A stretch of DNA of 64,000 nt. Source: Shinella zoogloeoides (lineage in GTDB: Bacteria; Pseudomonadota; Alphaproteobacteria; Rhizobiales; Rhizobiaceae). A model generated the notes under the pieces. It was not told the origin of the DNA. It ran no database searches and saw only the letters and a list, made by a program, of their open reading frames with translations. The DNA lies in NCBI RefSeq assembly GCF_033705735.1, contig NZ_CP131130.1, forward strand, positions 2,864,001 to 2,928,000. The letters are read 5' to 3'. Shown here in pieces: positions 6,955 to 62,847 of this stretch. The position numbers and the translations under genes are program-made. How positions within the stretch are numbered: the first letter of the stretch is position 1; every line of letters starts with the position of its first letter.

Positions 6955-6960
6955 CTGCGC

Positions 6961-7248
6961 TCACCGTGCGTCATTCGCCGCGGGCGCGACCGGCTGCGGC
7001 GTGCGGCCGAGAAAGCGATCGCGGGTCTCGGCCCAGACGCGCAGGCATCCGGCATCCTTGCCGGCGGCCTCGCCAAGCTGCTGGCACCGTCGCTGTTCGA
7101 CGCGAAGCGCATCGATCGAGCGCTCGACGGCCCGCGCCGGCTCCGGGACATTTACCTCGTCCTTGCGGGTCAGCTCGATGGCCGTCGCTGTGATCGCGAC
7201 AGCCACGAAGACGACGGCGCCCAGCCGGGCCAGCATCTTGCCGTCCAT
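6961..7248 (-). CDS. TrbK-like putative entry-exclusion protein
   Basis: 95-aa protein with one N-terminal membrane anchor (about residues 6-26) and a short periplasmic helical region with two Cys (CQQLGEAAGKDAGC). Its place between trbJ and trbL and its size match the alternative TrbK family of this cluster, which stands in for RP4 TrbK. In RP4, TrbK blocks redundant mating; that function here is inferred from position and family only. Confidence 0.8.
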   Translation of the reverse strand: MDGKMLARLGAVVFVAVAITATAIELTRKDEVNVPEPARAVERSIDALRVEQRRCQQLGEAAGKDAGCLRVWAETRDRFLGRTPQPVAPAANDAR

Positions 7249-7269
7249 GGTCGTCCCCCTTCCTGCGTC

Positions 7270-8034
7270 TCAGTTGCCGTTGAACATCTTGGCGTTTCCC
7301 GGCTGGTAGCCGGAGCCGGGCGTGAGGAAGCGGCGGCGCTGCTCGCGTCCCTGCTCGGCGGCCGCTGAACGCTCGGCGTCGGTGAGCGCCTGCGCCCGGC
7401 CGTTCGCGGCGATCACGGCGGTCAGGTCGGCGAGCTGCTGCGCCTGAAGGGCGAGGAGCTGGTTGCCGGCCTGGGTTGCCTGAAGTGCGCCGGTCGCGCC
7501 CTGGCTCTGCCCGACCAGCGCCGACATCTGGGTACGGTTGGTGTCGATGTTGCCGACAACGGTGGCCTGGACGCGCATGGCGTCCTGCAGACCGCCGACG
7601 GTGTTCTGCCAGCGGGTCTTCGCGTCCTCGATCAGCTTGGCGTCCGAGGCGGTCAGCGAGGCGTTGCCGTATTGCGTCTTGAACGCCTGATCGATCTGGC
7701 CGACGTCGAATGCGATGTTCTGCGCCTGGCTCAGGAGCTGCTGCGTGCGCTGCACGGACTGCTGGAGCTGCTGGAGCGAGGAGAACGGCAGGCTCGCCAG
7801 GTTCTTCGCCTGGTTGATGAGCATCTGCGCCTCGTTCTGGAGCGACGTGATCTGGTTGGTGATCTGCTCCAGCGCGCGGGCGGCCTGAAGGACGTTCTGG
7901 GCGTAATTGGTCGGATCGTAGACGATCTTCCAGGCGTGTGCCGGGGTGGTCAGGACCGGAGCGACGGCGAGCGGTACGGACAGCACGGTGGCGGCAAGCA
8001 GGGCGGCGGAGATGCGAGGCGAGGTGGGCGTCAT
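7270..8034 (-). CDS. trbJ: TrbJ, VirB5-like pilus-tip/periplasmic protein
   Basis: 254 aa with a clear Sec signal peptide (residues 1-34, cleavage near PAHA-WK) and a long helical, Gln-rich body (LEQITNQITSLQNEAQML) typical of TrbJ/VirB5 proteins. It is exported and probably acts as a minor pilus or adhesion component. It sits between trbE and the TrbK-like gene in the usual order. Confidence 0.93.
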   Translation of the reverse strand: MTPTSPRISAALLAATVLSVPLAVAPVLTTPAHAWKIVYDPTNYAQNVLQAARALEQITNQITSLQNEAQMLINQAKNLASLPFSSLQQLQQSVQRTQQLLSQAQNIAFDVGQIDQAFKTQYGNASLTASDAKLIEDAKTRWQNTVGGLQDAMRVQATVVGNIDTNRTQMSALVGQSQGATGALQATQAGNQLLALQAQQLADLTAVIAANGRAQALTDAERSAAAEQGREQRRRFLTPGSGYQPGNAKMFNGN

Positions 8035-8037
8035 GTT

Positions 8038-48154: not shown

Positions 48155-48378
48155 GAGGCGGTCCTGACGATGAGGCCGTCTCGAATGTCGATGGCGCCGA
48201 TGAGATAGAGGAGATTCGAGGCCAGCACGAACCGCTCGAAAGTTCCGACGTTCGGCTCCGTGCGCAGACGCTCCCAAAGGCCCGAGACGGTCATGGGCAT
48301 GCTGAGGTGGGCAAGCAGCGTCGCGCCGACACCGATCAGCGCCTCGTTCTGCGGGATATGTTTGGTCGGAAGAATCAT
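48151..48378 (-). CDS. ABC-3C middle component (MC6-like)
   Basis: 75 aa, with overlapping ATGA junctions on both sides. It starts MILPTKHIPQNEALIGVGA and has the winged-helix-like pattern SGLWERLR...FVLASNLLYLIGAIDIRDGLI. The size, position between the HNH and ATPase genes and this pattern match the ABC-3C middle component 6 family, which connects effector and ATPase. Confidence 0.82.
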   Translation of the reverse strand: MILPTKHIPQNEALIGVGATLLAHLSMPMTVSGLWERLRTEPNVGTFERFVLASNLLYLIGAIDIRDGLIVRTAS

Positions 48379-49118
48379 TTCTCAAACACGTCGCAGATTT
48401 CGAAAAGATAGATCAGCACCGCGATACCAGCAGTCTTGTCCGCCTGCCGACGCAACCCGCGTTGGGCAAAGGCGCACATCAGCTCGAACAGCTCGTCGCC
48501 CTTATGGCCCTCCTTCCGACGCGCGTAATATTCCTCAAGGAAGCCGGCTTTCAGGCGTTCGGGAAAGTCCGGATCGAGCTGCGCTTCGGCCTCGACATAG
48601 TCGCCAACGGTAGCTCGCGAGGTCAGACCGGCAGCAATGATATGCCGAGATCCGTTCGATAGAGCGTTCTTCTTGATCTTCTCGTCGGGCGCGGTGAGAT
48701 CGAACGATCCATTGCCTACAGGAGCTTGGCTGGCGACCCACGACACAGCGTTCTGCAATTCGGGAAAGGCAACGTCCGCAAAAGCCGCCTCCATCGCCTG
48801 GCGAACCTGCTCTTCGTGGCTTTCCTTCAGTTGCTGCAACGTCGCGGTGGGCCAATCAGCCTCGACCTTGTCGATGATCGTATGGTGGTCGGTGCAGAGA
48901 TAGATAAGGTTGCGGACGTTATCGCGCTCCGCATCGGTCATGGAGGCGTCGTAGCGCGCGGCGGTCGGCTTTTCACCCCGAATATGTGCCGCCTCGCCGA
49001 CATAGGTGTCGTCTCCCACCTGGGCGTCGTAGGTGAGATGCTTGCCGCATTTCGGAAAGGCGCAGACGCCGCCGCTTCGAAACGCCAGGATGATTCTCGT
49101 CGGATAACTAGCGCCCAC
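48375..49118 (-). CDS. ABC-3C effector: HNH nuclease with C-terminal ABC-3C domain
   Basis: 247 aa. The N-terminal HNH motif has zinc ligands (CAFPKCGK), EAAHIRGEKP, and RNLIYLCTDHHTIIDK. The C-terminal about 110 residues look like an ABC-3C C-terminal docking domain (GDELFELMCAFAQRGL). It likely cuts DNA when activated. The start codon overlaps the 3' end of the HigA-like gene by 11 bp, tying the system to the toxin-antitoxin pair upstream. Confidence 0.85.
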   Translation of the reverse strand: MGASYPTRIILAFRSGGVCAFPKCGKHLTYDAQVGDDTYVGEAAHIRGEKPTAARYDASMTDAERDNVRNLIYLCTDHHTIIDKVEADWPTATLQQLKESHEEQVRQAMEAAFADVAFPELQNAVSWVASQAPVGNGSFDLTAPDEKIKKNALSNGSRHIIAAGLTSRATVGDYVEAEAQLDPDFPERLKAGFLEEYYARRKEGHKGDELFELMCAFAQRGLRRQADKTAGIAVLIYLFEICDVFEK

Positions 49119-49861: not shown

Positions 49862-49879
49862 ATAGGTTAGAACCTATAT
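49860..49879 (-). promoter_or_regulatory. Palindromic operator at the higB start
   Basis: atataggtt-ag-aacctatat, perfect 9-bp arms. It overlaps the higB ATG (49861) and the stop of the upstream HTH gene (49876-49874). Its position suggests that HigA blocks transcription or translation of its own operon. A degenerate version lies at about 61079-61098 beyond the second HTH gene. Confidence 0.65.
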
Positions 49880-50176
49880 CCGGTCAATGGGAAGGATGCG
49901 GGGCGGTTCTGGCGATACCGTCGTGGTGCGACGGCAGCTCTTAGCCCAAGCGTCCAGATCATCGACTGCATAGCGGACCCATTTGCCGAACTTATGATAG
50001 GCGGGGCCTCCTCCTCGCGAGCGGTAGCACTCCAACGTATGTGCTTCGAGGGCGAGGTAGCGCGCCGCCGCCTCAGTGTCGACGAAACGAACTGGTCCCG
50101 CCTCGTCGACGAACCTGGCGCGCTTGAGGATGTCCGGCGTTGGCCAGCGGCGATCCGGCTTTGCTCTATCGGACAT
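49874..50176 (-). CDS. AlpA-like HTH_17 protein, copy 1
   Basis: 100 aa from the ATG at 50176. An excisionase-type winged HTH: VRFVDTEAAARYLALEAHTL, ECYRSRGGGPAYHKFGKWVR, then YAVDDLDAWA. Very like the product at 61093-61392 (about three quarters identical by eye). It lies 12 bp upstream of higB and may be cotranscribed. Such proteins act as excisionases or regulators of mobile elements. Confidence 0.85.
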   Translation of the reverse strand: MSDRAKPDRRWPTPDILKRARFVDEAGPVRFVDTEAAARYLALEAHTLECYRSRGGGPAYHKFGKWVRYAVDDLDAWAKSCRRTTTVSPEPPRILPIDRI

Positions 50177-50381
50177 GACCGGCCTCCATCGCTTCGGTGC
50201 GCTTCGAGCCAGGCGGAACCGAGCGGTTTTCGCCGCTGCGGTGACGATAGGGTCTGTAATTGCCGAGACGGGTGGGGGACTAGCGCCCCGACCGCAGATA
50301 ATTCGAACATCCCTGACTCCGCGCGACAGTCCGGGGAGCGGGCGTAAACATGAGTCATGGCGTTCCCACATAGATTGAAAA

Positions 50382-50421: not shown

Positions 50422-51015
50422 ATGCAGCGACTGACCGAACAGATTCTGGCGCATACCGAGGGTTTGCCCGAGGGCGCTCCGATCGCCGCGAAAAGCCTGC
50501 TCCATCTCGGCAACCGCCCCGCATTGGACCAGGCATTGTCGCGACTGGCAGAACGTGGCCGGCTGATACGGGCCGGGCGCGGCGTTTACCTACGTCCGGT
50601 TTCGAGCCGGTTCGGCGTTCGCGCGCCCTCCGTCGATAAAGCCGTTGAAGCCCTTGCGACGCAGCGTGGTGAAATCATCGTGTCGAACGGAGCGGCGGCT
50701 GCCAATGCGCTCGGGCTCACGACCCAAGTACCGGTCCGGTCGGTCTATCTGACCTCGGGCCGAAGCCGGACCATGACTCTGGGCCAGCAGACTATTGAGC
50801 TGCGCCATGCGCCACGCTGGCAGTTGGCGTTGGCCGATCGCCCTGCCGGGCAGGCCGTGCGCGCACTCGCCTGGCTGGGACCGGAGAAGGCGGAAGCGGC
50901 CTTGAAGACGCTGAAACACAAGCTGCCGTCTTCTACGTTCGGCGAGCTTGTCGCGGCCGCGCCGCAACTACCGAGCTGGCTCGCCAGATCGGTCGGCAAG
51001 GTCGCTCATGGCTGA
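50422..51015 (+). CDS. abiEi: AbiEi-type antitoxin/regulator
   Basis: 197 aa. An N-terminal winged helix (IAAKSLLHLGNRPALDQALS...RLIRAGRGVYLRP) and the AbiEi-type C-terminal domain (IIVSNGAAAANALGLTTQVP, VYLTSGRSRTMTLGQQTIEL, in part) are present. AbiEi neutralises AbiEii by repressing or modifying it (type IV toxin-antitoxin). It overlaps the toxin gene by 8 bp. Confidence 0.92.
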   Translation: MQRLTEQILAHTEGLPEGAPIAAKSLLHLGNRPALDQALSRLAERGRLIRAGRGVYLRPVSSRFGVRAPSVDKAVEALATQRGEIIVSNGAAAANALGLTTQVPVRSVYLTSGRSRTMTLGQQTIELRHAPRWQLALADRPAGQAVRALAWLGPEKAEAALKTLKHKLPSSTFGELVAAAPQLPSWLARSVGKVAHG

Positions 51016-52024
51016 AGCCTTCGTCACATTGTCAGCGAACGATCGGCGCGAGGCTCTTGCCGTTGCCGCCGATCGATCCGGCCGCCCGGCCCATCTGCTT
51101 GAAAAGGACGTGTGGGTCGTCTGGACTCTCGCAACGCTGTTCGGGTCAAATTTCGGCGAACATCTCGTGTTCAAGGGCGGCACATCACTGTCAAAGGCTT
51201 ATCACGTCATCCGGCGTTTTTCCGAGGACGTGGATCTCACCTACGACATCCGCGCCATCGCCCCCGACCTGGTGGGCGAAAACGGCGAGGGCCTGCCGAA
51301 AAACCGGAGTGAGGAGAAGCGATGGTCGAAGGCAGTCCGCCACCGGCTGCCAGAATGGGTCGACGGAACAGTCCGACCTCTCCTTGCCCGCGCGATCGAC
51401 GCGCAGTCGTTGCCTGCAACGTTCAGGGCCGAAGGCGACAAGCTGTTCATCGACTATGAGGCGACCTCTTCGGGATCGGGCTATGTGGCTCCGAGCGTGA
51501 TGCTGGAATTCGGCGCCCGCTCGACCGGGGAGCCGGCCAGCCCGCGCGATGTTGTATGCGACGCGGCCGGATTGGTCGACGGCGTCGAATTCCCAACGGC
51601 TCGTCCCCGGGTCATGCATGCCGAGCGAACCTTCTGGGAGAAAGCGACGGCAATGCATGTTTATTGCCTCGAGGGCCGGTTGCGGGGCGATCGGTTCGCC
51701 CGTCATTGGCACGATGTCGTCCGACTGGATGATGCGGGGGTCGCCAACGCCGCAATATCGGATCGTGAGCTCGCCGACGCGGTTGCCCGCCACAAAACCA
51801 TGTTCTTCGGGGCGAAGACGGTTGATGGCGAGGTTATCGACTACGAAGCCGCCGTCGGTGGAAAGCTGCAACTCGTGCCGGACGGAGATGCGCGCGCTGC
51901 GCTGGCAACGGACTATGCGCACATGGTCGAGGATGGGTTGCTGCTTGACGACGCGGAACCCTTCGAGGCGCTGATCATGCGATGTGCGGACATCGCCGGG
52001 CGAGCCAACCGTGCTGCGAAGTGA
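51008..52024 (+). CDS. abiEii: AbiEii-type nucleotidyltransferase toxin
   Basis: 338 aa from the ATG at 51008. A DNA polymerase-beta-like nucleotidyltransferase with FKGGTSLSKAYHVIRRFSED and the catalytic DVDL that follows. AbiEii/MenT toxins add nucleotides to tRNA and stop growth; GTP-type preference is family knowledge. The stop TGA overlaps the ATG of the next gene (TGATG). Confidence 0.93.
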   Translation: MAEAFVTLSANDRREALAVAADRSGRPAHLLEKDVWVVWTLATLFGSNFGEHLVFKGGTSLSKAYHVIRRFSEDVDLTYDIRAIAPDLVGENGEGLPKNRSEEKRWSKAVRHRLPEWVDGTVRPLLARAIDAQSLPATFRAEGDKLFIDYEATSSGSGYVAPSVMLEFGARSTGEPASPRDVVCDAAGLVDGVEFPTARPRVMHAERTFWEKATAMHVYCLEGRLRGDRFARHWHDVVRLDDAGVANAAISDRELADAVARHKTMFFGAKTVDGEVIDYEAAVGGKLQLVPDGDARAALATDYAHMVEDGLLLDDAEPFEALIMRCADIAGRANRAAK

Positions 52025-52920
52025 TGATGGGAGATAGGGTGTCGAGCTATTTTACGGATCGTGAATATGGGGCACGCCCTGCAACAATCGATGTCATTGG
52101 TGACCGTCTGTGGGCGGGTCTTTTCACCTTGATCGAGACGAGGATTGGCGATGGCTCGTTTGGCTTTCGCTTTCCGGAACAGTGCCCCGACGGGAATGGT
52201 CCGTGCGGATGTGACGTCCAAGCCTTCAGCCGGGTGCTGGGCGCCGAGGTGCCGTGGATCGAATGGCCGTTCTCTGTGAACGAAGTGCCCGATACGCCGG
52301 TGATCCTCGATCTGCTCGAGTTTTGCGCCAGCGCCGTCGGCGAGCCGATTCAAGGCAGTTATCATTCCTACTTCGGTCACCATCACTTGAGCTGGAACCG
52401 GGACGGCGGCCTTGCTCGGTTCGTAGCCGACGTAAACCTCCTGTTTCGCCGGAACGCGATTGCGTATGAACTCACATCGAGCGGACAGGCCCGCCGGCTT
52501 CTCCCACAGCCGGTCGCCGATGTTCTCGGTTGGGCGATGTTTCATACCGGTGATGCGGAGACGGACCGCCTGCTCGAAGCCGCTCGCCAACGGTTTCTAT
52601 CGCCCAAACCTGAAGACAGGCAGGACGCGCTGGAGAAACTGTGGGATGCCTTTGAACGGCTGAAGACACTGGAACCCGGCGCCAACAAGCGCGCTCAGGC
52701 CGAAGCGATGCTGGACCGTGTCGCCACGCCGGACTCTGGATTCCGGGAAGCCCTTGGGCGGGAGGCCGCTGAGCTGACCTCCATAGGGAACAGCTTTCGC
52801 ATTCGTCATTCCGAGACGACCCAAGAAACCCTGACCTCTCTGGATCAGGTGGATTATCTGTTTACGCGGATGTTTGCATTTGTGCGTGTGATCCTGAGAG
52901 GGACCGGGCGTGGCGGATGA
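52024..52920 (+). CDS. AbiJ-related abortive-infection-like protein
   Basis: 298 aa from the ATG at 52024. The N-terminal half resembles AbiJ N-terminal domains (TDREYGARPATIDVIGDRLW...GLFTLIETRI). The C-terminal part (NSFRIRHSETTQ, DYLFTRMFAFVRVIL) resembles HEPN-like AbiJ ends with a conserved RxxH-type stretch. Cotranscribed with AbiE and the nuclease-like gene downstream (overlap of 11 bp). Exact family uncertain. Confidence 0.6.
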   Translation: MMGDRVSSYFTDREYGARPATIDVIGDRLWAGLFTLIETRIGDGSFGFRFPEQCPDGNGPCGCDVQAFSRVLGAEVPWIEWPFSVNEVPDTPVILDLLEFCASAVGEPIQGSYHSYFGHHHLSWNRDGGLARFVADVNLLFRRNAIAYELTSSGQARRLLPQPVADVLGWAMFHTGDAETDRLLEAARQRFLSPKPEDRQDALEKLWDAFERLKTLEPGANKRAQAEAMLDRVATPDSGFREALGREAAELTSIGNSFRIRHSETTQETLTSLDQVDYLFTRMFAFVRVILRGTGRGG

Positions 52921-54232
52921 TCTTTATCGGCTTATCTTCGGAATTCTGCACGGGATGAGCCACGCCCAAATGAGTCAGGAGCCGGGGCTGGTCGCTGGGC
53001 TGGTCGTGCCGGCACCAGAGGGCTTCTCAAAACGGCAGCGTATCGAACTTGCGCTCGAAAACCTCACGCAGGCGGACTTGGCTCGACTGGCGCTCAAATT
53101 CGCTGCTGCTCGCAGCGACATCCCGCTTGATGAGGCGGGCCGCAAGGTGCTTGAGGCTGATGATCCACCGCTGACGCAGATCACACGACGAGACGTCGCG
53201 CGGATTCTCGGCAACGACCTCGCCGGCGAGCGTAGCACCGTGGAGGTCGTCGAGAGCTACTTCCCGCTTTCCTCACCATTCGAAGCCCTTTTTGGCAGCA
53301 AAGGCCAGAGCCTGCGCGACCGCATCGCCCGGCACATGGATCACAATCCCGGCGATTGGTCGGTCGAACAACTGTTTGGAGAAATCGGGGCCTTCGATTG
53401 TTCCAGGGCCAGGTTCGGCGCCTTGCTCGAACAAGCTGTTCACCCCCTTTCCCGATCAGGTGATGAGCAGACGAAGACAGTCGAAGCGTTGAACAGGGTG
53501 CTCGCGCGGGATGGATATGAGCTTGCGCAGGATGGCGAGGTATCCGGCCATCCGCTTTTCAGTTTCCGCTCTCTGGTGCGGGGGGTTGGCGGCCGGCCGA
53601 AAAACCTGATCTTTGCGTCACGAGGACCGAAGCCGGAAATCGGCTTCGCCGATGCGATCAACAACGACATCGTCATTCTGTCCGGCGAAGAGAGCTGCCT
53701 GATCTACGACCGGCCGATCAGCGCGAGCGGCCTTCTGTGGTCGGAACTCGTTTCCTGGTGGGGCGACGTTACGCCCGGTGCTGATGCCGCAAGACTCGGA
53801 GCGCGTCTCCAGGAATCCCTGGCCTCGGATGCGGAACGCAAGCTTTTCGCGGCCTACTTCAAGGCTTATCGGTCTACCCTCGGCGAGGCGCTGCCCGCGC
53901 TGCTGCCGCAGGTCTACCTTCACTATGATCCTGCCGTCGTAAAAACCCTGCGTCACCGGCTTCCATTGCCGCGTCAACGCATGGACTTCCTGCTTCTGTT
54001 ACCCAGCCGTCAGCGCGTCGTGATTGAGGTCGACGGTAAGCACCATTTCTCGGAAAACGACCTTCCTTCATTGAAGGTCTATGCCGATATGGTGTCGGCC
54101 GACCGCGAGCTGCGCCTTGCGGGATATGAGGTCTATCGGTTCGGTGCAAATGAACTGGTCGGTGACGGCGCCGAAGCGAAGATCAAGGATTTCTTCGACA
54201 AACTTTTTCGCCTGCATCGCATTCGCCAATGA
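52910..54232 (+). CDS. AbiJ-like/PD-(D/E)XK-type nuclease protein
   Basis: 440 aa. The first 330 residues are a helical domain of AbiJ-like type. The C-terminal 110 residues look like a DUF559/Vsr-type PD-(D/E)XK nuclease: RMDFLLLLPSRQRVVIEVDG followed by KHHF, and DRELRLAGYEVYRFGANEL. Asp, Glu and Lys of the active site are present. Probably the effector of a two-gene unit with the upstream AbiJ-like gene. Confidence 0.68.
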   Translation: MADDLYRLIFGILHGMSHAQMSQEPGLVAGLVVPAPEGFSKRQRIELALENLTQADLARLALKFAAARSDIPLDEAGRKVLEADDPPLTQITRRDVARILGNDLAGERSTVEVVESYFPLSSPFEALFGSKGQSLRDRIARHMDHNPGDWSVEQLFGEIGAFDCSRARFGALLEQAVHPLSRSGDEQTKTVEALNRVLARDGYELAQDGEVSGHPLFSFRSLVRGVGGRPKNLIFASRGPKPEIGFADAINNDIVILSGEESCLIYDRPISASGLLWSELVSWWGDVTPGADAARLGARLQESLASDAERKLFAAYFKAYRSTLGEALPALLPQVYLHYDPAVVKTLRHRLPLPRQRMDFLLLLPSRQRVVIEVDGKHHFSENDLPSLKVYADMVSADRELRLAGYEVYRFGANELVGDGAEAKIKDFFDKLFRLHRIRQ

Positions 54233-54265: not shown

Positions 54266-55150
54266 TCAGGGCGCATTCTCGATCTGGCGGGCAACCCATT
54301 GGGTATGTTCACGAGAGAACGCTCGCTCGGCTTCATTTACGAAGGCAGAAAACTTCTCTTCGCTGTCAATCGTGCCAAGCCGCGTCTGCAAGATGCCGAT
54401 CTCGTGGGCGGTGAGGCTGTAGGCAGAAGCGAGTTCGTTGAATTTCTTCAGTTGGATCCAACCTATGGCGGAAGACGCTATCACCAGCAAAGGTTCGGTT
54501 GGCCAAATCATCCATGGTGGATCATGGCGGATTCGGAGGAGAGCTAAAGCGATTGCGGCACCTTGAACGAGGACGCATATCAATATCCATAGGCGAAAAC
54601 GCTGCCTATTCCAGGTAACCTTTGCTACATACCATTCGCGTTGGTCCGTAATCCGGTCAGTATTATATCGTTGAACACGCTCTGCGAGAGGCAGAGCACG
54701 AACCGCATTCATTTCGTTGGTGATCTGATCGCCGGTTACCGGCCGACGGCTTATCGAGTCGCGGACGTGGCTGTTGGCATCCAGAATCGCCCTCAGAAAC
54801 TCCGAGAATTTCTCTGCTACTGTTGAGAGTTTCGGGGCATCTTCGAATGGCTCAGCTCGCATCATGTAACGCCAGGTTGATGTCTTGATCGACTCCGCCA
54901 GCGCTCGGCACCCGTACCACTCTTTCTCAGGTTTTTGGACTGCCATATATAGTAGGAGACCCGTAGAGGCGGCCAGAACTAACGCATAAGCGATGTATAG
55001 ATCAGGAGACGCTCCAAACCAAATAGAGATCGTCGCTGCGACAGTGAGCAGAAGGTACTGCAGCCGAATAAGCCTTAGATAGGTGGACTGGGCATCGGCG
55101 GCGGAGCCGTCTGCCGAGCGGTACAGGGCGGGAAAACTATCAGGCGTCAT
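54266..55150 (-). CDS. SLATT (DUF4231-like) membrane protein, last gene of the TIR-QueC operon
   Basis: 294 aa with two pairs of hydrophobic helices (LQYLLLTVAATISIWFG, YIAYALVLAASTGLLLYMAV; LWILICVLVQGAAIALALL, LLVIASSAIGWIQL) joined by a cytoplasmic helical stretch. This is the SLATT architecture, a 2TM effector class that often goes with nucleotide-signalling defence systems and is thought to form membrane pores. It stands last, 17 bp after the TIR gene. Confidence 0.78.
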   Translation of the reverse strand: MTPDSFPALYRSADGSAADAQSTYLRLIRLQYLLLTVAATISIWFGASPDLYIAYALVLAASTGLLLYMAVQKPEKEWYGCRALAESIKTSTWRYMMRAEPFEDAPKLSTVAEKFSEFLRAILDANSHVRDSISRRPVTGDQITNEMNAVRALPLAERVQRYNTDRITDQREWYVAKVTWNRQRFRLWILICVLVQGAAIALALLRIRHDPPWMIWPTEPLLVIASSAIGWIQLKKFNELASAYSLTAHEIGILQTRLGTIDSEEKFSAFVNEAERAFSREHTQWVARQIENAP

Positions 55151-55167
55151 ATCGACGGATCTCCGGG

Positions 55168-55635
55168 CTATTTCAGTTCAGCGGCCAATTGATTCCACTG
55201 GACGACTTTCACGCCGTGCTTCGCCACCCAAGGCGGATTTTGCCGTGGGGCGCCCCCCTTGGGGTGAACCGCCACCACCTTTTTCCCAAGAGCGAGGCTG
55301 GTCTCCACTTCCCAAGTCACCCAACGGCTTTGCGCAGTATTGTCGGAGATGTAGACGACACAAACAGATGAGCGCTCTATCCGCTCGCTGATCTTTTGTT
55401 TGATATATTCTGCGCGTTCGCTGTCGTAGGGCTCGCGAACAGAATGATCGTTGAACTCGATATCACTGTTCTCGTTCTTCGCATGCGCGCGCAGAAGATT
55501 GACCTCGTCCATATCTTCGGTTGCAAAACTGATAAAGACATTTCGTTTGCCGCCCTGAAGCGCCGCCTTGGCTTTCTCCTCCAGGGACCGAATGTCGCCT
55601 AACCTGCTCCAGCTCCCGCTACTCCCGCCGCCCAT
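55168..55635 (-). CDS. TIR-like (ThsB-type) protein with Met-Gly-Gly-Gly N-terminus
   Basis: 155 aa from the ATG at 55635, chosen because GAGGGGG lies 7 bp upstream and it follows the QueC stop by 1 bp. The N-terminus is MGGGSSGSWSRLGDIRSLEE, a flexible Gly/Ser tail. A TIR-like Rossmann fold follows: VFISFATEDMDEVNLLRA, then SSVCVVYISDNTAQSRWVTW with Glu after it. The Gly-rich N-terminus right behind a QueC-like gene suggests it is the QueC substrate (see findings). Confidence 0.82.
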   Translation of the reverse strand: MGGGSSGSWSRLGDIRSLEEKAKAALQGGKRNVFISFATEDMDEVNLLRAHAKNENSDIEFNDHSVREPYDSERAEYIKQKISERIERSSVCVVYISDNTAQSRWVTWEVETSLALGKKVVAVHPKGGAPRQNPPWVAKHGVKVVQWNQLAAELK

Positions 55636-55636
55636 A

Positions 55637-56227
55637 TCAGACCCCCTCAGCCTTGAATTCATTACATGCTATGCACGCTCCACAAGGTGTTTCACCCCCG
55701 AGATGACAGGAATAAGTGCCCTCGATGCCTTTAAGCGTCGCGAGTTCGATGACTTCCTGCTTGTGGAACGACGAGAGCGGTGCAAGGACCTTTATTTCAC
55801 GCCCCATGCTCCTTGCGATCATTGCCTCCGCCTCCTGCAAGAACGCCGATGTCTGGTCAGGAAACAGGCTGGTTTCCTCATGGAGGAGTCCAATCGATAT
55901 CGCATCGGCGTCGCGCTGAAATGCGTAGGCTGCTGCTACAAGCAGAAAGAGGAGATTTCGACCAGGAGTAAACGCATCCTCCAGCACTCGCTGGTTCGGG
56001 TCCGTCAACCCGGACTTAATGAGGCGGCCATAGCCCGACAGGTCGGCCACCTCCAAATCTGGTAGCTGCAACTTGGCCATCGCTGACCGGCAAGCCGCGT
56101 GCTCTCGATCGCGGGATCGCTGCCCATAGTCGATGAAAATCGGATATTGCTGAATCCCTTCCTCTTTTGCGAGGTAGGCGACCAGCGTGGAATCAAGCCC
56201 ACCGGAAACGAGAGTGACAATGCTCAT
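55637..56227 (-). CDS. QueC-like 7-deazapurine synthase/conjugase
   Basis: 196 aa from the ATG at 56227. The PP-loop ATPase motif SGGLDS (8-13), FIDYGQRSRDREHAA, TPGRN (87-91) and the C-terminal zinc site Cys174, Cys182, Cys185, Cys188 (CHLGGETPCGACIAC) are all conserved. Housekeeping QueC turns CDG into preQ0. QueC relatives in defence systems (Cap9 of type IV CBASS, QatC) occur without other queuosine genes, as here, and Cap9 is reported to join a deazaguanine to a protein N-terminus. It overlaps the glycosylase gene by 4 bp. Confidence 0.9.
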   Translation of the reverse strand: MSIVTLVSGGLDSTLVAYLAKEEGIQQYPIFIDYGQRSRDREHAACRSAMAKLQLPDLEVADLSGYGRLIKSGLTDPNQRVLEDAFTPGRNLLFLLVAAAYAFQRDADAISIGLLHEETSLFPDQTSAFLQEAEAMIARSMGREIKVLAPLSSFHKQEVIELATLKGIEGTYSCHLGGETPCGACIACNEFKAEGV

Positions 56228-56931
56228 GCTAACGCGCGCTCCGTATCTTGAGAACCCGCAACCCGCATCACTATCCAGATCGCCCAATCCATAAGGCCGA
56301 CTGCAAATCCGAGCCTATTTGCATGTGAAATCAGTTTATCTTCTTGCATGTGATAGTGTGAAAGCTTCGAGATGGCTCGGCCGGCCCCTGTGTAGAGTCC
56401 AATAATCGTCATGTAGTTCAATACGTGGCGATCCAGGACTGCGAGATCGTAGCTGATACCTGCGTTACGCAGGAACATACTCGCCTGCTTTGGCCCGATT
56501 CCAGCTACGTTCGACACAAGCCACGAGCGAGCGGTTGCCGCATCTCCGAAGGCATGCACGAGTGAGCACAGGTCCCCGCTTTCCTGCGAGACCGATTCGC
56601 GCGCAGAGGCCAATTGCATCGACTTTGATCGAGGAAAGCGATAATTTCGAAGGCTGCCGTTCACCAGTACAGGTTGACGGAGAACCCCGAGGATTTCATC
56701 GGCGAGTTCGGCCCGGGGTGCCGATGTGTTGAGGAGAAGCTGCCGTTTATCCAAAGCATCGGCGGTGGCTACGGCAAGCCCATACGGTACTTGACTGCTG
56801 AGCAGGCAGCATGAGAGTTCCCACCAGAGATTTCGCTCGTCAAGCGCACTCTGAGAGCGCTTAGCCCGCTCTTCAATCTCCGGGCATATTGCGGCAACGG
56901 CGTGCTCCAGCCTGGCAGCATCGTTTCTCAT
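56224..56931 (-). CDS. OGG-like HhH-GPD DNA glycosylase
   Basis: 235 aa. The helix-hairpin-helix NVAGIGPKQASMFLRN (141-156) with candidate catalytic Lys148, and LAVLDRHV with candidate catalytic Asp167, are 19 residues apart, as in OGG1. The N-terminal helical part (LLSSQVPYGLAVATADAL) fits archaeal-type or 8-oxoG glycosylases. Such an OGG partner also occurs in type IV CBASS. It may remove or check a modified base. Gene overlaps with both neighbours are 4 bp. Confidence 0.82.
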   Translation of the reverse strand: MRNDAARLEHAVAAICPEIEERAKRSQSALDERNLWWELSCCLLSSQVPYGLAVATADALDKRQLLLNTSAPRAELADEILGVLRQPVLVNGSLRNYRFPRSKSMQLASARESVSQESGDLCSLVHAFGDAATARSWLVSNVAGIGPKQASMFLRNAGISYDLAVLDRHVLNYMTIIGLYTGAGRAISKLSHYHMQEDKLISHANRLGFAVGLMDWAIWIVMRVAGSQDTERALA

Positions 56932-58331
56932 CTGAACAAATCCGGCATTTGATCCCTAAGTTGTTTTGAATTGGATTGGCCCAACAGGCCGACGGCAAAT
57001 GCTTCTAAGCGATTTGTTGAAGCGGCAGCCTGCAAGTCGTGGGTTAGCTCCCGATAGTAGTCCAAATTATGGAAGGCAACTTTACCTGCGTAGTCTATAT
57101 TATCGTCGGAGAGCGCAGAAACAGTGATGGCCGAAGCCGCCATCTGCGCCTGGTATGCGAAAAAATCGAAATGTTGGTAGTGATTTAATCTGTGCTGCTG
57201 TCGGTCAACGGCAACCCGGCACCACTCTAACCCATCGAAGCTGTCTGCTCCAGCTGCCGTTAGGATCGCTATACTCCATGGATTTCCCGTACCCAAGAGA
57301 TGGATCGGCTGATAAAAGGATAAGCGATCAAGCTCGTTCCGGACGCGCCTCATGGTCTGTGCGCGCTGGATCAGCCCTCGGCCCAACTCGCGCTCCGCCA
57401 GCGCGATCATCGGTGGCTGGAGCTGGTCGGCGACATCCCGCACGACCTCGGGGAGAATAGTAAGATCGTACCCTTTCGACCTAGTGGCGGGAGCATGAAT
57501 GATTGGAAGGACGGGGGCTTTGGTGAACTTCCTGTCTCGTTCGACCGCTGCAATGACTTGCCCAACCGCACGCTTTCTGTCCCTCGACGGATCCATCTCG
57601 TCGAAGCAATACACCCAATCGTGTGAAATCCCTTCCAGCGCCAATTCGAAATCTTGGGGCTTCCAGCTGTCGTCGTCGCGTCGCGTCGCTTCATAATTGC
57701 CTGAATCGACGAGGACAAATCCGCCTTGCGCGCGGATACGCTTCAGCTCCTGCTGGATACCTCGAGGGCGGCGGGGTGGAAACAGGTCGTAGGCGGAGAC
57801 AAGGACCGTCGATGTACCGAAGAGACGAAGAGCCTTAAGAGCTTCGAGAGGAACGAGTTGTGTCTCGTGTGATGACACGGAGAGGAACAAGCTCGGAAGG
57901 GGGACTCTACCCGCAGCGATGGCTGATGGGCGGGTTGGCGCCATCCTCGGCGGGACGACAGTCGAAATCTTGCGCATCAGGTGCTGGATACCAGGATGAT
58001 CGTCTTCTCCGGTCCAGCCCAGAAGATCAACCGCACTATAGCCGTTAAAGCCGTACGGCGCATTTGTCGGAATGATCTTAGCGGGAATAATCGGAATATT
58101 ATATTGCTCAGCTAAGCGGAGTTCGTCCTTTACATTACTCTTGTCCTTAGCTGTCGGCGACCAGAGCGGAACGACGCATTTTGTATTCTGGATTTCACGT
58201 TCGATCACGGTCGAGAAGTCGCCGACGATTTTATCGTCCCACCAAACATCCCATCGGGTTGAAAGTGTTTTTACTAATCTCTCCGCCTGTCCGACATCTT
58301 CTCGTGAATAGACTATGTAGACGTCTGACAT
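56928..58331 (-). CDS. TIR-TGT fusion protein
   Basis: 467 aa. Residues 1-125 form a TIR domain (VYIVYSREDVGQAERLVKTL, then EIQNTKCVVPLWSPTAKDKS) with candidate catalytic Glu70 in VKDELRLAEQYNIPIIP. Residues about 145-467 resemble tRNA-guanine transglycosylase: VLVDSGNYE (209; compare DSGGFQ), HLLGTGNPW (344-352; compare GxG/GVG loop) and FDGLEW (365-370; compare FDCVxP with the catalytic Asp). TIR joined to TGT is a fusion I do not know from named systems. Confidence 0.8.
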   Translation of the reverse strand: MSDVYIVYSREDVGQAERLVKTLSTRWDVWWDDKIVGDFSTVIEREIQNTKCVVPLWSPTAKDKSNVKDELRLAEQYNIPIIPAKIIPTNAPYGFNGYSAVDLLGWTGEDDHPGIQHLMRKISTVVPPRMAPTRPSAIAAGRVPLPSLFLSVSSHETQLVPLEALKALRLFGTSTVLVSAYDLFPPRRPRGIQQELKRIRAQGGFVLVDSGNYEATRRDDDSWKPQDFELALEGISHDWVYCFDEMDPSRDRKRAVGQVIAAVERDRKFTKAPVLPIIHAPATRSKGYDLTILPEVVRDVADQLQPPMIALAERELGRGLIQRAQTMRRVRNELDRLSFYQPIHLLGTGNPWSIAILTAAGADSFDGLEWCRVAVDRQQHRLNHYQHFDFFAYQAQMAASAITVSALSDDNIDYAGKVAFHNLDYYRELTHDLQAAASTNRLEAFAVGLLGQSNSKQLRDQMPDLFR

Positions 58332-58375
58332 ACGTAATTACTCCCCCCAGAGTAGTGAATCAGAAGTCTCACAAA

Positions 58376-59554
58376 TTATGCGTCGCCGCAACTGTCTAGG
58401 CTACGGCAAGATGCACGAGGCCAGGCAGCTCGGTACAAAGACGAGGCGAAGTCGGGAACAATCGTAACGCCGAGATCGGAGAGTGCAGCGATATCGGACC
58501 GCTGCTCCTCGTCCAGTATTACAATATTTTGGTGAGATCGCGTTGCGCAGAGTCGTCGAATTTCCGTTGTGCTCAATCCGTCCGCCACTAGAAGTGAAGG
58601 TGCATTTTCGAGGAATGAATCTGGGACCTCATCGAGTTGAGGTGAGAGCACTTCAACACCAAGCTCTTTCAGGCGGAAGCGCGCCTCCTCAAGCGTATAC
58701 CGCCTTCCGATTGTAGATGTTGAGCCATGCAGAACAATCCGGTTTGGTGCCTGCCCTGTTATGGGCTCGCGGCTACTGAGCAAGTCGGTTTGCACCGGAA
58801 GGGTCATTGTCTCACAGTAGGCGGACACCGATCGGGAGGCGAGGTCCGCGGCTTCGGCCGCGGAAGTTCCGGCTTCGCCCCAATGATATGCAAACACGGC
58901 ACTGAAGACATCCCCTGTTCCGATCTTGAAGACCCGAGATGAATAATATGCGGGAATGGTATTAGGTTCGGCATGACGCTCAAAGACGGTGACCCCCCGC
59001 ACCCCTCTTTTTACGACTATCACAGTCACCCGATCGCCATGCGACATGGCTTTCGCGGCGGCAGTCGCCAAGTCGGTGCAACCCGCATAGCGGCAGAGCT
59101 CTAGCTCATTCATAACCAAAGCAAGCCGTTTCGCTGTCGAGCCATTGGCTCCAAATGGCTCAGGACGGACAGCTGTCTGAGGATCGTAAATCGCGCGGAC
59201 AGCGTGCACGATGGCAGATCCTTCCAGGAACCCGAATCTCAGGACCACATCTCCCGAAACATGTATCGGAGGCTGCTGAGGAAATGACCCAGGTCGCGGC
59301 TCGATGTGTGGTTGAGACAGTGGGTGGAAGTACGCAAATGCGATCGCAATATCGGAATGGGTGCGGGATAGCCGCACACCGAGGTCCGACAGTTCGTCCG
59401 CTCCCGGGCTGCTCTCGTCCCGTGCATAGGTGTGAAGAGTGCTCCCTGGCGAAAGAGCACTGACGGCTGCCGCCGCGCGCCCGCCCGAGCCAAACTGTGC
59501 GTTCCACTTCGGCGTTTCGCACAATTCGCGATATAGTCCACCTGCGATTTGCAT
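58376..59554 (-). CDS. PfkB-family kinase fused to a Rossmann-like domain
   Basis: 392 aa. The PfkB fold is recognised by the N-terminal GSGGRAAAAVSALSPG, the middle block VIVVKRGVRGVTVFE and the C-terminal ATP/anion-hole motif IGTGDVFSAVFAYHWGEAG (GTGD, 212-215; usual GAGD). From about residue 268 a second domain begins with RIVLHGSTSTIGRRYTLEEA, like nucleoside deoxyribosyltransferases. It may phosphorylate a sugar or nucleoside made by the other enzymes. A gap of 44 bp separates it from the TIR-TGT gene. Confidence 0.75.
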   Translation of the reverse strand: MQIAGGLYRELCETPKWNAQFGSGGRAAAAVSALSPGSTLHTYARDESSPGADELSDLGVRLSRTHSDIAIAFAYFHPLSQPHIEPRPGSFPQQPPIHVSGDVVLRFGFLEGSAIVHAVRAIYDPQTAVRPEPFGANGSTAKRLALVMNELELCRYAGCTDLATAAAKAMSHGDRVTVIVVKRGVRGVTVFERHAEPNTIPAYYSSRVFKIGTGDVFSAVFAYHWGEAGTSAAEAADLASRSVSAYCETMTLPVQTDLLSSREPITGQAPNRIVLHGSTSTIGRRYTLEEARFRLKELGVEVLSPQLDEVPDSFLENAPSLLVADGLSTTEIRRLCATRSHQNIVILDEEQRSDIAALSDLGVTIVPDFASSLYRAAWPRASCRSLDSCGDA

Positions 59555-59569
59555 GATGCATACGTCCAG

Positions 59570-60397
59570 CTAATGGCCGATGATTGTCTGCATGCGGGCT
59601 AGTAGCGTCGCGGACAACTCGGCCCGACCTTGGTCGTTGTTGAGGTAGCGCACATATCGGAGATGGCGCAGGTCGAACGGGATATCGTGATCGCTTTGTG
59701 CAATGAGGATGACCTCTCGACCTAAGGTGTGTGCAATCCCGGCTTCGTAAAATACATTCGGATTTCGACCTGAGCAGTCACAGATCACGATGCGCGAACG
59801 ATCAATCAGGGAAACGACATCCTGAATAATTGACGCATTCTCCCAGATGTCGTCCGCCCGTCGGCAACGAAGTCCGACACCTTGAGCAGCGTTTCGGATA
59901 GCATCAAAAACAGGATTAAACGCCGCATCGAAGGGCATCATGGCGGATGCAAGATGGGGGTCTAAATTCTCATGCTCGGCCAATGGGAAGACCGTTGGCC
60001 GCTGTCGCCGGGGGCGTACCTGGCGAAGTAAAAAGCGGTACAAGTCGACCTCTTTCACGGCCCAATGGTTGCGAGAGAATTCGAAATCTCGGGGCATGTC
60101 CAGTTCAGCCCGGCTATCATAAAGCAGCGAGTTTGTTAGGGGAGGAACGTCGGGGTCAAAGCTTACCTCGAGTGAGACTTCGCCCCCTACGATGCGCGCC
60201 CGGTTTATCTGCCCGACATACGCGGACTCATCGCCGGTCCCCTCTTCGCAGAAGAGACAAGGCAGAGCCGTAAGTTTGTCCAGAAGTGGCGTATTGTTCA
60301 ATCTGAATAGTTCGGCGATATGCGCTTCCGTATATTCGAACATCCGGCCGATCGGCACAGTGACTCTTCCCGATGGCCAATCAGCATTAAACATCAA
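59570..60397 (-). CDS. Nucleoside 2-deoxyribosyltransferase/TIR-like protein
   Basis: 275 aa. The first about 145 residues are a unique helical/beta region with a CLFCEE stretch. The C-terminal half is Rossmann-like: ASAMMPFDAAFNPVFDAIRN, RSRIVICDCSGRNPNVFYEA, GIAHTLGREVILIAQ, then FDLRHLRYVRYL. This is the pattern of predicted nucleotide-binding proteins related to deoxyribosyltransferases and TIR, often found as effectors. Two ATG codons (60397, 60394) are possible. Confidence 0.78.
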   Translation of the reverse strand: MMFNADWPSGRVTVPIGRMFEYTEAHIAELFRLNNTPLLDKLTALPCLFCEEGTGDESAYVGQINRARIVGGEVSLEVSFDPDVPPLTNSLLYDSRAELDMPRDFEFSRNHWAVKEVDLYRFLLRQVRPRRQRPTVFPLAEHENLDPHLASAMMPFDAAFNPVFDAIRNAAQGVGLRCRRADDIWENASIIQDVVSLIDRSRIVICDCSGRNPNVFYEAGIAHTLGREVILIAQSDHDIPFDLRHLRYVRYLNNDQGRAELSATLLARMQTIIGH

Positions 60398-60430
60398 AAG
60401 ATTGAAAATCGACGTCCCCTCCGCGTTAAA

Positions 60431-60925
60431 TTACAGGCCCCAGCTACGATACTGATCCGTGCCGTAGTGCCGTGCTCCCCCGGCCCTTTCGGTGCGGCTC
60501 AAATGTTGGAATTCAGTTGGCCAATGTCTTATAGCATGTTCTATGGCCTTCAGTTTGAATGGTACGTGTACAACACAATGATCCCTAATGATCGGCGGGC
60601 ACAAACTGTCCTGTACGCGGCTTTCATTGAGGTTGACGGCAATAATCGGCAGATCCAAGCTCAACGCGAGTTCTAGCTCCCACCTTACAAAGCGGAAAAG
60701 ATTCTTGGTCGAGTTTCCAATCAACACCATAACTGCTGTCGATTGTCGCATTCGCTCCCGCAATTTCGATTTTACGTAATCCTCATTCTGAGCACGCGAC
60801 GTCATGTTGTCGAGATCATGAGAGTCCACGAACTGGAACGGTATTCTGGGGTTGGCATGCCACCCCCGGACATACCGGTAAGCCCATTGGTCGTTATCGC
60901 CATCGAAAACGACGTAAGTCGACAT
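60431..60925 (-). CDS. TIR-like (ThsB-type) protein, first gene of the operon
   Basis: 164 aa. The pattern STYVVFDGDNDQWAYRYVRG, FVDSHDLDN, then AVMVLIGNSTKNLFRFVRWE with LELALSLDLPIIAVNLN resembles the TIR-like MTH538/ThsB family. In Thoeris, ThsB proteins sense phage and make a NAD-derived signal. As the first gene, with GGAACGGAAA upstream, it could be the sensor or one of two signal-making subunits. Confidence 0.78.
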   Translation of the reverse strand: MSTYVVFDGDNDQWAYRYVRGWHANPRIPFQFVDSHDLDNMTSRAQNEDYVKSKLRERMRQSTAVMVLIGNSTKNLFRFVRWELELALSLDLPIIAVNLNESRVQDSLCPPIIRDHCVVHVPFKLKAIEHAIRHWPTEFQHLSRTERAGGARHYGTDQYRSWGL

Positions 60926-61092: not shown

Positions 61093-61392
61093 CTATGTTC
61101 GATTAAGAGGGAGAATGCGCGGTGCTTCCGGAGAAGCGGTCGTCGAACGTCGGCAGCTTTCCGCCCAGGCATCAAGGTCGCCGACCGCGTACCGGACGTA
61201 GCGTCCGAACTTGTAGAATGCCGGCCCCGTATCGAGAGATCGGTAGCATTCGAGCGTATGGGCATCGAGCGCCAGATATCTTGCCGCTGCGTCTGTATCG
61301 ACAAAGCGGACGGGGCCAGCATCTTCCACGTAGACCGCGCGCGCGAGGAGGTCTGCGGACGGCCATTTTGCTCGGTTGTTAGGTCGCGACAT
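61093..61392 (-). CDS. AlpA-like HTH_17 protein, copy 2, next to the integrase
   Basis: 99 aa. Paralogue of 49874-50176 (VRFVDTDAAARYLALDAHTL, ECYRSLDTGPAFYKFGRYVR, then YAVGDLDAWA). It is downstream of the integrase gene on the same strand, 51 bp away, so it may be the dedicated excisionase or regulator of this integrase. Confidence 0.85.
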   Translation of the reverse strand: MSRPNNRAKWPSADLLARAVYVEDAGPVRFVDTDAAARYLALDAHTLECYRSLDTGPAFYKFGRYVRYAVGDLDAWAESCRRSTTASPEAPRILPLNRT

Positions 61393-61443: not shown

Positions 61444-62847
61444 TCATCGCGTTGCCTCCCTGTTTTCATCATGTCGGGCGCCGGGCGGGGTGGCGCGATT
61501 GGCCCCGTTGCGATGGCGGAATGGCCGATAGTTTCCGACCTTGGTGCGCGACGAATACTTGCCGTCTTCCAGGCCGGGAGGCGGCGACGCGGGCTCGGCA
61601 ACGTCCGCTGTTTCCAGCGCGGCGCCGACCTCGATCTCGACCTCTGTCGACGGTTCCTCAGCGACCGGGGCTTCGGCGCCGACGACGATGCGCCTGCGCG
61701 CGGCGACCGCATCCGCAGCCATGCGCACCGGGTCTTCCTCGTTGTGAACGTAGCGCATGAACATGGTGACGGTCTTATGCGCCGTGAGCGCCATACCGAC
61801 CTTCAATGGCACGCCCGAGTTCGCGATATCGGTTGCGGCGCGATGGCGGATGCCGTGCGTACCGACATGGGGGACGCCCGCTCGGGCAAGGATGCGCCGC
61901 CATCCGTGTTGATAGGTATTGTCCGTCATCGGCTTCGAGGGATCGAAGATCGACGGGCACACATAGGGCGACGTCTCGAAGCGCGGAGCCTTGCTGAGCA
62001 GCCGGTGAGCCTCGTCGCTGAGAGGCTTCGTCATTCCTCCCGTCTTGCTGTCAGGCCAGGTCACGCGCCGGCGTTCGAGGTCGATCCAGGCCCATTCGAG
62101 CGTAAGCACCTCGGACTTGCGCGCCGCCAGCTCGAACTGGAGCCGGATGGCGAGGGTGATGAAGGGATGCTCCAGGCCCTCCCGGTCCGAGCGGTCGAGA
62201 TAGGCGAAGAGCTTGCGCATCTCCTCGTCGGTGATGAACCGGGTCGATCCGTTCTCCGCGAATTTCTGGACGTGCCTGCACGGATTGGAGCCGTCTGGCC
62301 GATATCCCCACAGTTCGGCGAGGTTGAACATCTTCCGAAGGGCAGCGAGCGTTCGATTGGCGTTCACCGGCCGGTCGGCCATGCCGGTCATCAATTCCGA
62401 GATGTGGGCGCGGGTGACTTCATGAGCCTTGTAGCGGCCCAGGCGCGGAAGGATGTGGTTCTTGATGTTCAGTTCGTTCGTCGCGACGGTGGAGGGCTTG
62501 TTGTGAAGCTTCGAGTGCTCCTCGATGAACTTGGTGCACAGCTCCTTCATGGTCGGTGCTGCGCGCGCGGCTGTCTTCTCCGCGCACGGGTCGCGTCCAT
62601 AACGAACCTCCGCGAGCCAGTCCTGTGCCAGGTTGCGGGCCTGATCGACGGTGAGTTCTCCGAATCGACCTAGCGCGGGCTTCCGGCGGACGCCGGAATT
62701 GGTCACGTAGGCGAGCATGAAGATCTTGCCGCCGAACGGTGTGACTTTCAGCATGAAGCCCGGTACGATCGTATCGCGGAGTTCGTATTCGCGCTCCTTC
62801 GGGCGCGCGGCGTCCACAGCCGTCTTGGTGAGTTTGATTTTGGCCAT
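61444..62847 (-). CDS. int: P4-type tyrosine integrase of the ICE
   Basis: 467 aa. The N-terminal DUF4102 arm-binding domain (KIKLTKTAVDAARP...VPGFMLKVTPFGGKIFML) is followed by a SAM-like core-binding domain and the catalytic domain with Arg (AARKSEV), His-X-X-Arg (HGIRHR), His (ALTAHK) and Tyr (MFMRYVH). About 80 residues after the Tyr form an unusual acidic/basic tail. It catalyses insertion into the tRNA-Leu-like site 187 bp beyond its start codon. Confidence 0.96.
   Translation of the reverse strand: MAKIKLTKTAVDAARPKEREYELRDTIVPGFMLKVTPFGGKIFMLAYVTNSGVRRKPALGRFGELTVDQARNLAQDWLAEVRYGRDPCAEKTAARAAPTMKELCTKFIEEHSKLHNKPSTVATNELNIKNHILPRLGRYKAHEVTRAHISELMTGMADRPVNANRTLAALRKMFNLAELWGYRPDGSNPCRHVQKFAENGSTRFITDEEMRKLFAYLDRSDREGLEHPFITLAIRLQFELAARKSEVLTLEWAWIDLERRRVTWPDSKTGGMTKPLSDEAHRLLSKAPRFETSPYVCPSIFDPSKPMTDNTYQHGWRRILARAGVPHVGTHGIRHRAATDIANSGVPLKVGMALTAHKTVTMFMRYVHNEEDPVRMAADAVAARRRIVVGAEAPVAEEPSTEVEIEVGAALETADVAEPASPPPGLEDGKYSSRTKVGNYRPFRHRNGANRATPPGARHDENREATR

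Follow-up and report, generated by a model that had tools for sequence, protein, structure and literature searches.

A recurrent TIR–QueC operon in Shinella zoogloeoides as a candidate immune system built on the protein-tagging module of type IV CBASS

We analysed a 64,000-nucleotide stretch of the Shinella zoogloeoides genome (contig NZ_CP131130.1 of assembly GCF_033705735.1, positions 2,864,001 to 2,928,000; hereafter the window), which carries an operon of eight minus-strand genes. Comparison of these genes with their relatives suggests, at a probability that we put at roughly two in three, that they encode a TIR-based immune system built on the protein-tagging module of type IV CBASS (cyclic oligonucleotide-based antiphage signalling system), in which a small TIR protein would stand in the CD-NTase's place as the target of QueC, and to which swappable effectors would be attached. 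The core comprises four genes, encoding a TGT protein, an OGG-family glycosylase, a QueC-family ligase and a small TIR protein with a Met-Gly-Gly (MGG) start; the first TIR gene and the deoxyribosyltransferase-like (NDT-like) gene of the operon are variable accessories. QueC deazaguanylation of the type IV CBASS CD-NTase has Met-Gly-Gly-Ser as its published acceptor; the match of the MGG start to this motif is, as we read the sequences, the main clue to how the system would work. The initial annotation of the window had recorded the Met-Gly-Gly-Gly start, which proved to be recurrent, but missed its link to the QueC acceptor motif.

A contig collection was scanned with 21 aligned QueC sequences (the window protein and 20 relatives), which yielded 79 loci; of these, 59 (L007–L065, 40–95% identity) were assigned to this QueC family from their neighbourhood and identity, while the remaining 20 carry housekeeping-like QueC proteins (29–35% identity). 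The 59 loci, together with four annotated plasmid loci and one viral contig, formed a set of 64 loci, some of them on short contigs. Clustering of their genes recovered QueC in 63 loci, any type of TIR in 62, TGT in 61, OGG in 60, PfkB in 40, TPR-S-type proteins in 38 and SLATT in 32; among the 49 loci longer than 12 kb, TGT and OGG were found in 49 each, QueC and TIR in 48 each, PfkB in 38, TPR-S in 34 and SLATT in 28. Because QueC was the bait for every locus, its count of 48/49 reflects the simple gene caller. The carriers include Pseudomonadota, Desulfuromonadales, Nitrospira, Clostridiales, Gemmatimonadetes, Acidobacteriota, Methylomirabilota, Latescibacterota and a few archaea, many of them metagenome-assembled genomes (MAGs). 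The operon is not a chance assembly, as its core gene order is found again across the 64 loci, which span several phyla. The neighbourhood shared across these loci, rather than an independent scatter of homologues, bears out the co-occurrence expected in the initial annotation; its proposal that the eight genes form one defence system is partly supported, in that the neighbourhood recurs but the eight genes are not a fixed unit, given a core of four genes and the PfkB and SLATT counts in the long loci.

The small TIR gene (55168..55635, minus strand; Pfam ThsB_TIR 2.8e-24) directly follows QueC, the ATG of its MGGG tail (55633..55635, minus strand) lying one base past the QueC stop, with the same layout in relatives. 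An in-frame MGG start at most 60 bp from the QueC stop was present in 59 of the 63 loci with a TIR match directly after QueC, encoded from ATG in 57 and from GTG and TTG in one each; these rows are not independent, because the 57 ATG rows collapse to 46 at 93% identity. Among 30 control TIR-homologous loci from a genome sample, fetched out of 40 TIR places listed, the MGG start occurred in 5/5 loci beside QueC and in 0/25 elsewhere. Within the 64 loci, the first 80 codons allow an in-frame MGG start in 18 of 826 other open reading frames (ORFs). Of the other ORFs with a TIR match, 3 of 88 scored MGG, and none of the three is a separate intact TIR: two are fragments of the TIR that is broken in L008, and the third is the L041 TIR-TGT with its start extended upstream. 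A chance MGG start is ruled out by the 25 non-QueC TIR loci and the other-ORF controls. Glycine at position 2 is absent from all other proteins of the operon. In the predicted structure, residues 1–28 of the MGG-TIR have a predicted local distance difference test (pLDDT) score below 50, and the tail is variable beyond MGG, whereas the TIR rows share 46–97% identity with the window TIR. Its structural matches are Bacillus cereus TIR and ThsB structures, Trp105, Trp108 and Glu109 are kept in 60/60 TIR rows, and alignment with ThsB marks Glu109 as the likely NADase residue.

The four exceptions are L008, in which MGGG is kept in a broken frame, L058 (MAGSGGG), and the archaeal loci L063 and L064, which have no MGG; in L062, no TIR match was found by phmmer, yet an MGGN protein follows QueC. 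L008 is a broken relative, its TIR match being spread over three separate ORFs (8593–9058). In the QueC proteins of L063 and L064, the SGG loop has Asp at its second Gly and the last Cys is replaced by Arg, and this loss of catalytic residues together with the missing MGG is telling. The archaeal QueC–TIR gene pairs lie at 8001–9137 (L063) and 418–1545 (L064); TGT and OGG were not found in the 8 kb upstream in L063, and L064 offers only 417 bp upstream to examine.

QueC itself (55637..56227, minus strand; Pfam QueC 1.2e-39; PADLOC type IV CBASS QueC model 2.1e-27), the proposed N-terminal tagging enzyme, is not the housekeeping enzyme, because it scores below the NCBIfam TIGR00364 cut-off (122 versus 150.3 bits) and falls in a clade of TIR-linked QueC proteins. 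That clade groups it with 23 further TIR-linked QueCs (97/97) and excludes two Cap9 rows, five rows of QueC Cluster 4 of Libby et al. 2026 and eight housekeeping rows; with long branches and only two Cap9 rows, the tree leaves the nearest sister of the clade unsettled. The P-loop, YGQ, Glu42, Arg90, Asn91, Asp124, Lys156 and four cysteines are each kept in 62–65 of 65 rows, and Cys174, His175, Cys182 and Cys185 of the CHx6CxxCxxC motif in 65/65. The window genome has a second QueC (L141, contig C2, 3322–7403) with putative queD and queE genes, beside DpdA (PADLOC 1.3e-167) and DpdB (4.7e-121) genes, which are parts of a 7-deazaguanine DNA modification cluster.

The core TIR-TGT protein (56928..58331, minus strand) joins an N-terminal TIR to a C-terminal Cap10-like TGT domain (Pfam TIR_2 and a sub-threshold TGT match; PADLOC type IV CBASS TGT model 2.5e-24), the best structural match of the latter being Cap10 of type IV CBASS in its NDG complex. 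Across 61 TGT genes, 48 encode TIR-fused proteins of more than 430 residues and 12 encode proteins of 303–356 residues; one of these short TGTs is interrupted (L016) and another begins at a contig end (L032), which leaves ten without room for a TIR domain. The TIR-TGT of L016 (3337–7309), unlike that of L017, is interrupted by about 2.4 kb, and this locus is another broken relative. The CxCxxC motif, the zinc site of tRNA TGT, is missing in 120/120 relatives listed. The overlapping core gene for the OGG-family HhH glycosylase (56224..56931, minus strand; Pfam Ogg-HhH 4.8e-25) keeps Lys148 and Asp167 in 62/62 rows.

Around this core, the PfkB-family protein (58376..59554, minus strand; Pfam PfkB 5.9e-7) has a degenerate C-terminal Rossmann part and keeps the Asp of its GxGD motif in 41/41 rows. 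The first gene (60431..60925, minus strand) encodes an accessory ThsB-like TIR protein of 164 residues (Pfam ThsB_TIR 1.5e-17; PADLOC ThsB 4.3e-49), and the second (59570..60397, minus strand) an accessory protein of 275 residues with a TTG start and a C-terminal TIR/NDT-class domain; this protein has three close relatives, in L007, L008 and L043. Seven family labels given in the initial annotation fit Pfam or PADLOC; 'deoxyribosyltransferase-like', its label for this second gene, is uncertain, because the protein has no Pfam match up to E 1 and its residues 160–252 fit a PADLOC TIR effector model (1.4e-9). The last gene (54266..55150, minus strand) encodes a SLATT_3 and SLATT_1 membrane protein (Pfam 9.2e-40 and 9.1e-34), the proposed effector. 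SLATT belongs to a swapped periphery, in which TPR-S proteins also occur. L033 and L192 have trypsin-like domains there and, like L018, lipase- or hydrolase-like ones, some of which fall slightly short of Pfam cut-offs; L001 has a CAP12-type TIR. Such swapping around a constant core is usual in second-messenger systems. SLATT has been predicted to be regulated by ADP-ribose derivatives, and phage TIR–SLATT pairs have been noted, in a published survey (PMC9503650).

Taken together, tagging of the TIR by the operon's QueC is strongly indicated by these comparisons; the nature of the tag, the signal and the defence function are what we infer from them. In the proposed mechanism, the host would supply 7-carboxy-7-deazaguanine (CDG), and QueC would attach it to Gly2 of the small TIR once the methionine had been removed, giving an NDG-type tag, as suggested by the conserved MGG start and disordered tail of the TIR, together with the retained QueC residues and the published Cap9 chemistry. 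The Cap10-like domain of TIR-TGT would then grip the tagged tail and dock a second TIR beside the first, a step proposed because the TGT domain matches Cap10 in the NDG complex. Upon infection, the TIR pair would use up NAD+, consistent with the invariant, likely catalytic Glu, and yield an ADP-ribose-type messenger. This messenger would act on the SLATT membrane protein and halt the cell; elsewhere, TPR-S proteins with hydrolase or protease domains occur in place of SLATT or alongside it, an effector role suggested by the swapping of the periphery between loci. OGG and PfkB would probably act on the glycosidic bond or the sugar of the tag or of its target, which is the weakest step. An improbable elaboration is that the tag is itself the signal substrate, the TIR pair placing the ADP-ribose of NAD+ on the tail deazaguanine, or an exchange proceeding via TGT, to give a deazaguanine-ribosyl or protein-tethered messenger, with OGG cleaving the new glycosidic bond as an off-switch and PfkB phosphorylating the sugar. 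If true, this deazaguanine-ribosyl chemistry would be unlike that of the known messengers cyclic oligonucleotides, cyclic ADP-ribose (cADPR) and histidine–ADP-ribose (His-ADPR).

A type IV CBASS whose CD-NTase has been lost or is encoded elsewhere would have the same QueC, TGT and OGG types, and the window genome does have one CD-NTase elsewhere; nevertheless, we regard this explanation as highly improbable. The eight proteins have no match to any CD-NTase family in Pfam, PADLOC or NCBIfam, as the initial annotation had noted from the letters, and its proviso that a CD-NTase might regularly be encoded next to the set found no counterpart, since clustering of called genes returned no recurrent CD-NTase family beside the core in 64 loci. 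In the host genomes of 50 of the 59 contig-collection loci, the SMODS CD-NTase family (PF18144), which does not span every CD-NTase, was unmatched in 41 and matched in 9, 8 of them above the cut-off. The CD-NTase of the window genome belongs to a HORMA/TRIP13-like CBASS (L142, contig C2, 3406–6929: HORMA_2, TRIP13-like AAA ATPase, CD-NTase), and the MGG tail sits on the TIR. A hidden CD-NTase serving the operon was rejected on the basis of the 41 hosts and this separate system. The incomplete reach of PF18144 weighs against our proposal of a tagged TIR, as do several further observations: the core TIR of L058 begins MAGS; SLATT is missing in 21 of the 49 long loci and is therefore not obligatory; the window QueC has FPDQ at the canonical YPDC/YxDC position, with Phe for Tyr; and the window QueC-family profile scores E. 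coli QueC (1.6e-24) above Cap9 (1.1e-15). Additionally, QueD (PF01242) is present in 40 of the 50 hosts, and the putative QueE protein of the window genome found no match in the ten QueD-less genomes, with matches in 3/3 controls, two of them weak, so that the CDG supply is unproven in 10/50 hosts. These ten include several MAGs, but also isolates, for example L008 and L025; the result speaks against CDG synthesis being strictly required in all hosts, or else reflects incomplete assemblies. These ten hosts and the FPDQ motif would suit a QueC that tags the TIR tail with a group other than CDG (another deazapurine, a purine or an acid), following the same logic with a chemistry that is not NDG, and the authors of the QatC work allow a distinct modification for QatB. 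We consider this rather unlikely, as QueC Asp124 (65/65 rows) and the four-cysteine set (63/65) are kept and the reader domain is nearest to the NDG-binding Cap10.

Two explanations would dispense with protein tagging altogether. QueC, TGT and OGG all come from nucleobase enzyme families, and the conserved Lys148 and Asp167 would suit a glycosylase that removes a base; QueC could thus produce a free deazaguanine base that TGT inserts into RNA or DNA and OGG excises, with the TIRs acting separately. This nucleic-acid modification would leave the MGG start unexplained and sits poorly with the missing CxCxxC motif, the proximity of the TGT domain to Cap10 and a QueC score under the canonical-model cut-off, and we judge it doubtful. 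A metabolic salvage or repair operon, to which the PfkB and NDT-like parts might point and which recalls the published attribution of a related PfkB–QueC pair to purine salvage, appears very unlikely given the TIR, SLATT, TPR-S and protease partners, the flanking AbiJ/AbiE genes and integrase, and the carriage on plasmids, some typed conjugative.

The tagged-TIR system that we favour is closest by working principle to type IV CBASS (Cap9, Cap10, CD-NTase; comparator L160, on a Pseudanabaena plasmid), with which it has in common a QueC-family enzyme, a Cap10-like TGT and a partner that starts with MGG and has a flexible tail; a 2TM/SLATT-type protein is also encoded next to these genes in the comparator. 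The CD-NTase carries the MGG tail there and a TIR carries it here, however, and the TGT here is TIR-fused in most loci, QueC lies outside the clade of the two Cap9 rows used, and the PADLOC type IV CBASS models score 94.5 and 84.1 bits compared with 231 and 365 in L160. Thoeris likewise has a ThsB-type TIR, here in the first and seventh genes, and a NAD-derived signal is the likely output in both; QueC, TGT and OGG are additional here. Thoeris is defined by a ThsA-type effector that senses the TIR product, and the eight proteins have no SIR2 or Macro match in Pfam and no ThsA match in PADLOC (both up to E 1). The qatABCD system also combines a QueC-family enzyme with a protein that carries Gly2 and a long, disordered N-terminal tail (QatB, MGTS); however, none of the eight proteins matches the QatA ATPase, QatB or the TatD-like QatD, and QueC here is short, keeps the canonical core and matches the QatC profile only at 0.02. 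By membership, the operon is therefore not type IV CBASS, lacking a CD-NTase, nor is it Qat or Thoeris.

QueC Cluster 4 (PfkB-NDT and QueC), represented by L149–L153, has a homologous PfkB beside a QueC-family gene and an OGG homologue nearby in 5/5 loci examined, but its QueC motif is CHx5CxxCxGCxK, no TIR-TGT was found in its loci, and the next gene, where named, is nitroreductase- or restriction-like. Identity with this cluster, suggested by PfkB, was ruled out by gene content and QueC motif. The Cluster 4 modules lie on plasmids of Pseudomonas, Agrobacterium, Roseivivax and Methylocystis (about 4600–9000 in these loci), and in 3/3 loci checked a small protein beginning MSGS or MSSG is encoded upstream, which could be a partner of the Cluster 4 QueC. 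The TIR–SLATT pairs of firmicute phages (PMC9503650) have TIR adjoining SLATT as here, without QueC, TGT or OGG in the annotated stretch, and their TIR match leaves out the MGG tail region. TIR, TGT and SLATT go unmentioned in the main text of Libby et al. 2026. No paper describing the TIR–QueC combination was recognised among the papers that the literature searches listed, outside of which lay the main deazaguanylation and TIR-survey papers, and priority for its description is uncertain. Burroughs and Aravind reportedly treated TPR-S and TIR immune systems in 2020 and may already draw this neighbourhood.

At E 1e-30, the QueC profile matched 5 of 398 Pseudomonadota genomes, its own included; the TIR profile matched 32, and only the same five matched from the first tail residue (at least 223 bits), the next-best match scoring 77 bits and starting at profile position 30. 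The type IV CBASS TGT model gave six matches in this sample, the same five and one unrelated TGT (L148/L191), which was rejected as type IV CBASS since it has no QueC or CD-NTase-like match alongside, although no CD-NTase profile search was made there. The Brenneria locus L028 found no match in E. coli by distant blastn, which would overlook likeness at the amino-acid level only. Partial TIR matches occur in 24 phage records (61–63% of the query in the matches listed), 22 of them staphylococcal, and among 55 loci on viral contigs L086 alone belongs to the family. Some of the four plasmid-borne loci are on plasmids typed conjugative; one of these, the large plasmid pTiCFBP4996 (L001), carries the system and accessory TIR genes near a site-specific integrase gene.

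Within the window, the operon comprises eight intact minus-strand ORFs (60925–54266). Transcription order gives gaps of 33, 15 and 44 bp, two 4-bp overlaps and gaps of 1 and 17 bp, confirming the tight packing reported initially (gaps of at most 44 bp or 4-bp overlaps); here, QueC is taken to start at the ATG overlapping the OGG stop and TIR at the ATG of MGGG, for both of which the ORF listing gives longer versions. Promoter and terminator scans of the operon gave signals no higher than in shuffled sequence. The operon lies in a stretch of lower GC content (0.53–0.64 from 44 kb on, versus 0.65–0.70 at 2–42 kb) of a 5.79-Mb genome in four contigs, flanked on one side by AbiJ-domain and AbiE genes and on the other by a tyrosine integrase gene (61444..62847, minus strand; Pfam Phage_integrase 7.3e-21), which is context outside the system. 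Two genes with AbiJ-type N-terminal domains (AbiJ_NTD4, below cut-off, and AbiJ_NTD3; 51982–54232, plus strand) face the operon and adjoin the AbiE genes, where the AbiEii noted initially was located at 50948–52024. Two HTH_17 genes similar to each other (49874–50371 and 61093–61392, the second near the integrase) flank the defence block and maybe mark duplicated edges of an island. At 46409–49118 (minus strand), an HNH gene adjoins a DUF2326 ATPase-like gene that weakly matches an ABC-3C domain, possibly a further defence pair.

Protein deazaguanylation has been reported on a single kind of target, namely the CD-NTase of type IV CBASS, and has been proposed for QatB. In the operon family described here, which spans several bacterial phyla, the same acceptor motif and module are found on a TIR signalling enzyme. 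If our proposal is true, tagging by QueC would be a general switch fitted to unrelated alarm enzymes, linking cyclic-nucleotide and NAD-based immunity, and the four core genes would offer a small test bed for the role of the tag and the purpose of TGT and OGG.

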